A stretch of 64,000 nt of DNA from a virus. This document shows, in pieces, positions 27,226 to 30,907 of this stretch (position 1 is its first letter; every line of letters starts with the position of its first letter). The notes under the pieces are model-generated. The model did no database searches. It was not told where the DNA came from and saw only the letters and a program-made list of their open reading frames with translations. The position numbers and the translations under genes were made by a program. The stretch lies in the IMG/VR virus record IMGVR_UViG_3300032288_004964, positions 1 through 64,000 of that record; one strand, 5' to 3'.

Positions 27226-27741
27226 TTATTTATTTTTATATTTGATTTGGTCTTCTAATGAAGGTCTTTGATTTCTCGGTGTTAATTCATCTCTAACTTC
27301 CATTAGAATTTTACCAAGATGATTTTGTCCTTTATCGCCACATTTATCACAGGTACATATACCCCAGTAGACATCGTGCCAATAATTACCTTCAACTATG
27401 TCTTGATTAGATGTATTAATTAGCATTTCTTTTAATTCTGGATTGTTTTTAAATTTCTGTCTAACTGCCCAGTTCATTACTTCTAATTTCTTTTCATCCC
27501 AGTTACTTCTTAGTTTAACTTTACTTCCAATCTTTTTAACTTCAGCTGGATTTTTAACTAAAGCTATCATTTCTCTAAAATCTCCAGGTGTGTAGTATTT
27601 ACCATTGATTAGTTGTTGGTCATTAACTTTCATGGCTACATAAAAGTTTTCCACTGATGGATATTTAATACCTTGATGTTCTATTTCACAAGGGTAAAAA
27701 TTAGATAAGAATCTATATCTGCCTTCAAATTTATTTATCAT
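27226..27741 (-). CDS. NADAR (YbiA-like) N-glycosidase domain protein
   Basis: 171 residues covering a full NADAR/YbiA domain: 'FEGRYRFLSNFYPCEI' near the N-terminus, 'YPSVENFYVAMK', 'NWDEKKLEVMNWAVRQKFKNNPELKEMLINT', then 'IVEGNYWHDVYWGICTC' and 'GQNHLGKILMEVR'. NADAR proteins cleave N-glycosidic bonds of ADP-ribose-linked substrates; some remove ADP-ribose from guanine and act as antitoxins to DarT-type toxins. A phage copy next to a Dam methylase may counter host ADP-ribosylation defence or act in NAD metabolism. The family is clear; the role is inference. Confidence 0.85.
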   Translation of the reverse strand: MINKFEGRYRFLSNFYPCEIEHQGIKYPSVENFYVAMKVNDQQLINGKYYTPGDFREMIALVKNPAEVKKIGSKVKLRSNWDEKKLEVMNWAVRQKFKNNPELKEMLINTSNQDIVEGNYWHDVYWGICTCDKCGDKGQNHLGKILMEVRDELTPRNQRPSLEDQIKYKNK

Positions 27742-28085: not shown

Positions 28086-28145
28086 ATTGTAAGTTATTTT
28101 TTAAATACTTACATGTCAATTCTATCTCTTAATTTTTTCATACTA

Positions 28146-28153
28146 CAAATATA
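28146..28153 (-). promoter_or_regulatory. Candidate host-type -7 box (TATATTTG)
   Basis: Matches the Bacteroidota TAnnTTTG -7 element on the minus strand, upstream of the 27771-28085 gene. No clear -33 TTTG at the expected distance, so support is partial. Confidence 0.35.
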
Positions 28154-28173
28154 TATAATTTTATTTAAATTGT

Positions 28174-28202
28174 AAAAACCCACAATTTTATTGTGGGTTT
28201 TT
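28174..28202 (-). terminator. tmRNA terminator
   Basis: AAAAACCCACAAT / ATTGTGGGTTTTT stem (13 bp) with a 3-base loop, 4 bp beyond the tmRNA 3' end on the minus strand. Confidence 0.9.
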
Positions 28203-28206
28203 CTTG

Positions 28207-28584
28207 TGGAGATGAACGGTTCTGCCACCGATGTCTTAATAGTTGTTTATATTTATTCTTTTACAGGCTTAGTTATGTTTTTCTAAACTAACAAAATAGA
28301 TACTTTTTTTGAAGGACTCTAAAAAGTTACAAAAAATGGTCTCACCTTTTTTATCCTGTGTGAATCAGGTTGGAGAATTTTTTGATAGTAACTGTTTATT
28401 AGACAGTTGCTAGATCTTCTACCAAGATCATGTTGTTTTGTAGAGCCGCTACTAAATCTTCACGAGTTCCTACTTCATTTGTTTTGCCATTTACGACGTG
28501 TTACTTAATTTATTAATCGGACACTTAACCACCCGATACCTGCATAACTACCACCACACTACCAATCAATTCTAAAACATCCCC
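28207..28584 (-). ncRNA. ssrA: Phage-encoded transfer-messenger RNA (tmRNA)
   Basis: On the minus strand the 5' end reads GGGGATGTTTTAGAATTGAT, the usual tmRNA start. The 3' end CATCTCC pairs with GGGGATG over 7 bp (one G-U) to form the acceptor stem. A tag reading frame (28399-28488) starts after CGTAAAT at a GGC resume codon and ends in TAATAA. Both stops sit in the loop of a 6-bp helix (AACTGT/ACAGTT, 28390-28408), as in tmRNA helix 5. PK1-like ATCGG/CCGAT pairing precedes the tag. The CCA end is not encoded (ACAA follows the stem). A host-type promoter lies upstream and a terminator directly downstream. tmRNA rescues stalled ribosomes and tags the nascent protein. The T-arm is unusual (see findings). 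Confidence 0.88.
28399..28488 (-). other. tmRNA tag reading frame (29 residues)
   Basis: From GGC at 28488 to the first TAA at 28399-28401, followed at once by a second TAA. The peptide begins GKTNE, matching the G-E-T-N / G-E-N-N start of Bacteroidota tags, but is 29 residues rather than about 9-10 and ends EDLATV instead of the usual ALAA degron. Confidence 0.75.
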
Positions 28585-28606
28585 AAGTGTTATAATTATT
28601 ACATTA

Positions 28607-28637
28607 CAAAGATATATATAATATTCCAAAAGTCAAA
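28607..28637 (-). promoter_or_regulatory. Bacteroidota-type promoter of the tmRNA
   Basis: On the minus strand TTTG (28634-28637), exactly 19 bases, then TATCTTTG (28607-28614), fitting the TTTG-N19-TAnnTTTG consensus. It lies 22 bp before the mature tmRNA 5' end, leaving a short leader for RNase P removal. Confidence 0.75.
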
Positions 28638-28653
28638 AAAGTTTAAAAATAAA

Positions 28654-29103
28654 TTAGAAAGGAGCTTCATCATCTTCTAATCCTTCTCCATAATAGAAGT
28701 TAAATACTAAAAGTGGTTTGCCATCTTTAGTTTCCCACATTTCAAATTCAGAGTCATATTGAGGAAGAATATCTCTTTTTAATCTTTTAGCAGTGTCAAA
28801 AACACTTATAATTGATTCAATCTTTTCTCTATAACCCATAGTAACTGATATTGTTATATCAAGTTCATCATGTTCAACATAAACATCTTTAATACCTTTA
28901 TTCTTGAACATAGTTCTTAGTAAATATAGAAGGTTATCCATATCTGAATCACCAATCATTTCATCTTCCTCTTCTTCTTCGGTTGCCTTCTTTGAATGAT
29001 TTGGTCTACCAAAAAGATATTCATCATCATTATAATATGATTCATCTTCATCATAATCTTGTTCGTATTCTTCGAATAGTTCTTTATAATTCTTTAGTTT
29101 CAT
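28654..29103 (-). CDS. Acidic tagged phage protein of unknown function
   Basis: 149 residues starting MKLKNYKELFEEYEQD, matching the shared N-terminal motif with an L-F-E site at residues 9-11. Residues 12-55 are extremely acidic (runs of Asp, Glu and Tyr); the C-terminal part is a small alpha/beta region ('IKDVYVEHDELDITISVTMGYREKIESII'). Not recognised. It follows the M20/M42-like peptidase gene by 1 bp in the same operon. A packaged acidic head protein is one possibility; unproven. Confidence 0.65.
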   Translation of the reverse strand: MKLKNYKELFEEYEQDYDEDESYYNDDEYLFGRPNHSKKATEEEEEDEMIGDSDMDNLLYLLRTMFKNKGIKDVYVEHDELDITISVTMGYREKIESIISVFDTAKRLKRDILPQYDSEFEMWETKDGKPLLVFNFYYGEGLEDDEAPF

Positions 29104-30490: not shown

Positions 30491-30907
30491 TTAAATTATA
30501 ATTTCATATGAATTTGTATAATCAACCTTTACTTGACCATCATTCATACCTTTTTCTTTTTTAACAAACTTTCTTTGACAATAAACAATAGTAGCTTTTT
30601 CATCTTTTGGTGATTTACTATTCTTTTTAGCGAATTCTGCCGCCTTTTTTAAAACTTCTTTACTTGGAATTAACATTTCTTTTGTTGATGTTATTTCTTT
30701 TGTTTTAATCACAACATGACTACCAGGAACTCCTTTAACATGCATCCATATATCATCATTTTCTGCTATATTAAATGTTAGATAATCATTAGACTTGGCA
30801 TCTTTACCAATATAGACTGTAAATCCATCTATTTCCTTCTTTTGTATATTTGGAAATTTATCCTTTTTAGATTCTAAATATAATTTGAAATTACTAATGT
30901 GTTTCAT
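30491..30907 (-). CDS. Stand-alone NFACT-R (DUF814) domain protein
   Basis: 138 residues. Residues about 28-135 form an NFACT-R domain with the diagnostic 'DDIWMHVKGVPGSHVVIK' (51-68) and 'KATIVYCQRKFVKK'. In RqcH/Rqc2/NEMF this domain belongs to the protein that binds stalled large ribosomal subunits and directs C-terminal tailing. Small stand-alone NFACT-R proteins lack the NFACT-N and coiled-coil parts. Residues 1-13 (MKHISNFKLYLES) fit the shared N-terminal motif. It lies close to the tmRNA (28.2-28.6 kb), so a role in ribosome rescue or its inhibition is a reasonable inference. Confidence 0.82.
   Translation of the reverse strand: MKHISNFKLYLESKKDKFPNIQKKEIDGFTVYIGKDAKSNDYLTFNIAENDDIWMHVKGVPGSHVVIKTKEITSTKEMLIPSKEVLKKAAEFAKKNSKSPKDEKATIVYCQRKFVKKEKGMNDGQVKVDYTNSYEIII

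Follow-up and report, generated by a model that had tools for sequence, protein, structure and literature searches.

Few features of tRNA-like molecules are as conserved as the TTCRANY T-loop and the contact that it makes with the GG of the D-loop. The partners of this GG in tRNA are T-loop positions two and three (PMC4810234), and His22 of E. coli SmpB is a decoding-centre contact (PMC8363625). ARAGORN called tmRNAs in 402 of 18,146 phages (PMC9004378); phage tmRNAs found with standard tools are described for mycobacteriophages, Bacillus phage G and methylophage Melnitz (PMC4131195, PMC9004378). Huge phages carrying both a tmRNA and SmpB have already been reported, with the tmRNAs called by ARAGORN, and the five of their genomes above 634 kb are predicted to infect Bacteroidetes (PMC7162821). 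A 2025 tmRNA database was built with ARAGORN, BLASTN and newly made covariance models, its viral part drawing on RefSeq (PMC11915505).

In this paper, we report the analysis of a locus in a window of 64,000 nucleotides, taken from a virus record of 385,333 bp (IMGVR_UViG_3300032288_004964) that is possibly incomplete. The original prediction, a phage tmRNA behind a Bacteroidota-type promoter, is supported by the RF00023 match, by covariation in a family of relatives and by the promoter match. Judging from the sequence comparisons below, we consider it likely that the locus encodes a working, divergent huge-phage tmRNA that is paired with a phage SmpB, the most likely host being a member of the Bacteroidota. 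The features of the RNA are as follows.

28207 to 28584, minus strand: one-piece tmRNA (ssrA homologue), 378 nt to the discriminator base; full-length RF00023 match, covariation among 53 members
28578 to 28584, minus strand: acceptor stem, 5' strand GGGGATG, with G3 of G3-U70; 96% of cells paired in 53 sequences
28208 to 28214, minus strand: acceptor stem, 3' strand CATCTCC, with U70; pairs with 28578 to 28584
28572 to 28573, minus strand: D-loop AG (GG in bacterial tmRNA), read from the sequence; AG in 48 of 53 phage RNAs
28538 to 28567, minus strand: helix 2, 5' strand; 94-100% paired, two-sided changes at most pairs
28500 to 28537, minus strand: PK1 region, 5' of the tag; first stem 99% paired, second stem plausible
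28402 to 28488, minus strand: tag frame GKTNEVGTREDLVAALQNNMILVEDLATV with resume codon GGC; conserved tag family
28440 to 28473, minus strand: hairpin within the tag frame; 96% paired in the family, 5 pairs changed on both sides
28413 to 28429, minus strand: second hairpin within the tag frame; 87% paired in the family, 4 pairs changed on both sides
28399 to 28401, minus strand: tag stop TAA, with a second TAA next; in the family, TAA in 50 and TAG in 3 of 53
28390 to 28408, minus strand: helix-5-like hairpin whose loop contains the stop codons (AACTGT-CTAATAA-ACAGTT), read from the sequence; some relatives have no such hairpin
28233 to 28268, minus strand: helix 2, 3' strand; covariation in the 53-RNA alignment
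28215 to 28232, minus strand: T-arm, stem ATCGGT/ACCGTT and loop GGCAGA; family covariation, TTCRANY loop absent

The RNA lies on the minus strand exactly at the predicted positions, with the discriminator A at 28207, in a non-coding gap that extends over 568 bp (28086-28653) rather than the predicted 450 bp or so and is flanked by genes for proteins of 149 aa and 104 aa. A covariance-model search had been named as the check. When 28100-28700 was scanned with cmscan under an E-value threshold, RF00023 matched at full length (model positions 1-374 of 374, at 28584-28204 on the minus strand) with an E-value of 7e-12, but the score of 33.7 bits is below the curated cut-off of 47 bits. At the gathering score the locus gave no match in Rfam, and ARAGORN called no tmRNA there. 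The phage copies that were scanned score 24-34 bits, as opposed to 105-198 bits for tmRNAs in 60 sampled Bacteroidota-group genomes. The minimum free energy of the window RNA is not unusual (z -0.73) and is uninformative by itself. Other RF00023 matches in the record were pieces resembling tRNA, of which several coincide with tRNAs called by ARAGORN, and no second tmRNA was seen among them; since the tmRNA of the window itself escaped this record-wide search, its silence on a second copy is weak.

Relatives were identified by BLAST, which found copies 81% and 75% identical in the genomes of two uncultured phages (634,780 and 642,428 bp), and by pattern and tag searches of IMG/VR contigs. After removal of duplicates the family comprised 53 distinct RNAs, the window copy included. 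The extraction patterns demanded that the RNA begin with GGGG and that its 3' end carry TCC, including the T at position 70, and the conservation of these letters is therefore partly by construction. The tag-based search, which found 50 loci, is independent of them, and G3-U70 is present in every complete copy, also at loci recovered by the tag alone. Two pattern matches (L011 and L013) were discarded as chance. A match in Phage YerA41 was also set aside, being a 39-bp AT-rich stretch within the promoter region and not a tmRNA.

Covariation in the 53-RNA alignment establishes the structure of the RNA. The predicted acceptor pairing of GGGGATG (28584-28578) with CATCTCC (28214-28208) was found as described, and two of its pairs are changed on both sides in the family. 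The T-stem is 98% paired with two-sided changes at all 6 pairs, against 22-61% in slid controls; over the helices generally, when the partner is slid by 1-3 columns, pairing falls to values that range from 0 to 77% between helices. Of the predicted PK1-like pairing, the first stem is firm at 99%, while the second is weakly favoured by a swap control (11.28 for its own partner, 10.17 when swapped). The predicted placing of the tag stops in a helix-5 loop holds for the window copy, but in the alignment some relatives lack the hairpin. Stems predicted 3' of the tag, where PK2 to PK4 would lie, show covariation as well. The two hairpins of the tag frame show codon-level covariation, for example GATC...GATC versus GCTC...GAGC, and thus Ile/Leu and Asp/Glu of the tag change together. 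Given this conservation, with strong covariation across 53 distinct RNAs, the question is settled on comparative grounds: the locus encodes a real tmRNA homologue.

The elbow is altered in most of the family. Of the 53 RNAs, 36 have GGCAGTA or GGCAGTG as their T-loop, and most of the remainder have a close variant of it. The canonical TTCRANY loop is present in a single copy, L073 (TTCGAAT), with L058 nearly (TTCGCA) and L052 partly (ATCGGA) canonical, whereas all 36 tmRNAs of bacterial phylum-mates have it; the D-loop of phylum-mates has GG. In a family tree rooted on bacterial tmRNAs, L073 branches first, followed by L058, L052 and then the rest; because the copies at the root thus have T-arms of the canonical or nearly canonical kind, the odd T-loop is read as one that a true tmRNA acquired secondarily. 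Two copies nested in the tree, L066 and L067, have the D-loop GG together with the T-loop GTCAGTG, and the D-loop/T-loop pair (G-U to A-G) moved jointly in both tree events. Such a coupled change is suggestive, two events being too few for significance. Position 3 of the T-loop is still C and the second letter of the D-loop still G, so that the outer pair could survive. The absence of the T-loop consensus means that contacts with the ribosome, EF-Tu or modification enzymes could be impaired. The replacement of TTCRANY by GGCAGT[AG], with the D-loop changed from GG to AG, looks new. L052 and L055 belong to the same tag family and have a T-loop of a third kind (ATCGGA); none of the usual neighbour genes was detected beside them. 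A subclade formed by L060-L072, without L062, has tags ending in ...PELV or ...LEL[VA], and its tRNA-like part has the D-loop TCGCC with GTAC in place of the GATT with AGAC of most others. This is a second change, placed on both sides of the SmpB-contacting region.

The tag frame is open in all 53 copies and conserved. It encodes 27-30 aa (NEVGTREDLVAAL...), is preceded by [GTA][TC]AAA[TC] and begins with GGC, GGA or GAC as the resume codon, with UA at -5/-4 of that codon in 52 of 53. The 37 different tags follow the general pattern G[KN][TV]NEV[GA][TS]xEDLVxxL..., and the last residue is V in 35 and A in 18 of 53, an AA end occurring in none. The conserved part is the N-terminal half, in contrast to bacterial tags, which keep a terminal ALAA/AMAA; of the tags of phylum-mates called by ARAGORN, 35 of 36 have 9-10 aa and end in AA, the one exception being probably a miscall. 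The long tag with its V/A end also looks new, although its length falls within the 8-35 aa known for bacterial tags (PMC8012679). Among the 28 distinct copies of 29 codons, both alternative frames hold stops in every copy and pN/pS is 0.65 in the tag frame versus 0.73 and 0.83 in the other two, which suggests a modest constraint at the peptide level, mixed with constraint from the two internal hairpins. Between the preceding stop and the tag frame, no in-frame ATG, GTG or TTG is found in the window copy or in 37 other copies, which fits resumption and not initiation. The tag had no second match in three big phage genomes, where it occurs at the tag locus only, and we rejected the idea that it copies another phage protein. 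It was found neither in other records of the phage collection nor, as DNA, in bacterial genome contigs, and a tag profile that recovers the phage copies found none in 395 Bacteroidota-group genomes.

The record also encodes an SmpB of 144 aa at record position 238695-239117. It matches PF01668, TIGR00086 and NF003843 above cut-off, including the NCBI equivalog cut-offs, and has the conserved core and a basic C-terminal tail, GKKMYDKRETIKKRDVERDLRRVA. SmpB is present in all five records over 380 kb that were found to hold a tmRNA of this family: both genomes of 634-642 kb encode it, in the common order thioredoxin-ORF-SmpB, and contigs of 436 and 476 kb carry tmRNA and SmpB as well. Contigs of 92-263 kb with a close SmpB have no tmRNA on the same piece, as expected of fragments, though this does not prove the point. 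Because the two genes lie about 210 kb apart in the record, their pairing is one of co-occurrence only. In a quick SmpB tree the phage SmpBs cluster within a set of 13 rows. They differ from bacterial SmpBs at a few near-fixed positions; Tyr or Phe stands, in 8 of 9, in place of the near-invariant bacterial His that was aligned by eye with His22 of E. coli. The two largest genomes encode ClpP-family proteins, some of which may be head proteases; such genes number two in LR745206.1 and three in LR756502.1, and none was found in the window's own, possibly incomplete, record.

The signals and genes that surround the tmRNA in the window include the following.

28607 to 28637, minus strand: Bacteroidota-type promoter match, TTTG-N19-TAnnTTTG; exact, with similar matches in L009 and L010
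28174 to 28203, minus strand: terminator-like inverted repeat ending in T, a self-complementary match just downstream of the tmRNA
30491 to 30907, minus strand: stand-alone NFACT-R domain protein, 138 aa; PF05670 at 59.7 bits, best PDB match RqcH
27226 to 27741, minus strand: NADAR-domain protein; PF08719, conserved on the 3' side of the tmRNA in almost every relative

The predicted promoter is thus present and recurs in two relatives, but the match is weak taken alone, since 2 occur in the window where 0.68 would be expected, and part of it is lost in L012. In that copy, whose tmRNA is 90% identical, a small deletion removed the TTTG of the -7 element (L012 715-767, minus strand), and its tmRNA may be silent or use another promoter. 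Likewise, the predicted terminator corresponds to the inverted repeat at 28203-28174, but a terminator scan gave no score there. The genes around the tmRNA encode a gp23-like major capsid protein (MCP), a head maturation protease, a portal and a terminase, and the order protease-MCP-NFACT-R-peptidase-tmRNA-NADAR-methylase is kept in nearly all copies. The NFACT-R gene, 1.9 kb from the tmRNA, stands beside it in most relatives, L058 included, and was not detected near L066 and L067; we take its product to be an RNA-binding domain of the RqcH/NEMF type, part of ribosome quality control. NCBIfam places the NADAR protein in a riboflavin-intermediate N-glycosidase family, the NADAR anti-phage family matching more weakly. 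Elsewhere in the record, many tRNA genes cluster at 245-271 kb. A separate tRNA with a CTA anticodon (L006) was called tRNA-Pyl by ARAGORN, and gene stops in the window are TAA in 46 and TAG in 3 of 50.

From these features we infer expression, charging, SmpB pairing, tagging and the fate of the tag as follows. The RNA would be transcribed from the TTTG-N19-TAnnTTTG promoter and loaded with alanine at its tRNA-like end by the host alanyl-tRNA synthetase, via G3-U70. Phage SmpB would carry it to ribosomes stalled on broken messages, where alanine would pass to the unfinished chain, reading would restart at GGC and the ribosome would append 29 residues before stopping at TAA. Broken messages are likely late in infection. 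The RNA would probably act at that stage too, as its position in the capsid module, by the head protease and major capsid genes, suggests late expression. The remodelled elbow may lead the RNA to favour phage SmpB over host SmpB, and the host ...YALAA/YAMAA degron would be replaced by a conserved segment with a V/A end. Tagged chains are expected to be degraded by Clp-type proteases of the host, or by phage ClpP where present, and the V/A end could serve as the Clp signal. A host in the Bacteroidota is indicated by the type of promoter, by a tag start like the tags of that phylum and by the published host prediction for huge phages, from whose study we presume the relatives of 634-642 kb to come.

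What the altered elbow and tag amount to may be read in several ways. A tentative possibility is orthogonal trans-translation, in which the elbow was rebuilt for the phage and not the host SmpB and the long tag goes beyond simple ssrA-type destruction; if so, the tag could serve delivery to a phage protease or the sorting of unfinished virion proteins. There is also some chance, well short of even, that tag and loop changed by ordinary neutral drift while the RNA kept a host-like job that ends in ClpXP degradation, with functionally nothing new. The span of tag lengths already known in bacteria agrees with this, and all tags, ending in V or A, could still act as a Clp signal. On the other hand, the T-loop is nearly fixed in its new form, and it is the N-terminal half of the tag that is conserved; both points suggest selection and not drift. 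That the RNA is a decoy, a tmRNA-like molecule that does no tagging but, by binding to SmpB or the ribosome, blocks trans-translation in the host, we regard as improbable. A decoy could well have a changed elbow and no need of a host-like tag, and there is a precedent in the TLD-only tmRNA of mycobacteriophage DS6A, which is proposed to act in this way (PMC4131195, PMC11915505). It would, however, require neither an mRNA-like part nor a phage SmpB, whereas the open frame, the resume-codon context and the stop are kept in all 53 copies and the phage supplies SmpB.

Two further readings we consider very improbable. A conventional small gene that lies within a structured leader and resembles a tmRNA incidentally would agree with a frame that is among the best-conserved parts and with the possible upstream in-frame start of 15 copies; it is largely refuted by the 38 of 53 copies with no such start, by covarying tRNA-like ends and by the full-length RF00023 match. 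A dead remnant of a host-derived tmRNA would account for the score under the cut-off and the missing T-loop consensus, but it leaves unexplained the two-sided compensatory stem changes and a frame that stays open throughout a long-branched tree. The remnant reading is hence refuted for the family as a whole, while a single copy such as L012, with its damaged promoter, could be silent. A working phage tmRNA with its own SmpB remains the reading that we prefer. A family with a replaced T-loop, compensated stems and canonical basal relatives offers a direct test of the role of the elbow in ribosome rescue, and its conserved tag, unlike host tags, raises the question of what phages do with unfinished proteins.

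In comparison with known systems, the phage family resembles the published huge phages in combining tmRNA and SmpB, the largest of those phages being predicted on Bacteroidetes, and differs in that ARAGORN, with which their tmRNAs were called, returns nothing on the tested loci of the altered-elbow class; the accessible text of that report holds no description of the altered loop and tag (PMC7162821). A class that is invisible to ARAGORN and under the Rfam thresholds implies that published frequencies of phage tmRNAs are too low. The predicted rarity of tmRNAs in phages is accordingly fair by the available ARAGORN counts, but such counts do not see this class, and huge phages with tmRNA had been reported before. 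In the accessible open-licence literature that we searched, neither the same tag nor any tmRNA that lacks the canonical T-loop and keeps a tag frame was found. The tmRNA of Melnitz is set apart from the family by being two-piece, and that of DS6A by being TLD-only. Jakobid mitochondrial tmRNA is also reduced or altered and kept with SmpB, but appears to have no tag frame, whereas the phage RNAs keep a long one (PMC11915505). With the one-piece, Bacteroidota-type tmRNA of RF00023 the family shares the architecture, the G3-U70 acceptor, the long helix 2, the PK1 stem, the resume-codon context, a tag start of the GNTQ/GEYN kind, the stop codon and the SmpB partner. It differs in its T-loop (GGCAGT[AG] versus TTCRANY), 6-bp T-stem and D-loop (AG versus GG), and in its tag, which has 27-30 aa and a V/A end where the bacterial one has 9-10 aa and a terminal AA. 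The phage RNA thus appears to be a tmRNA homologue that departs from the canonical T-loop, tag end and score and is probably functional.
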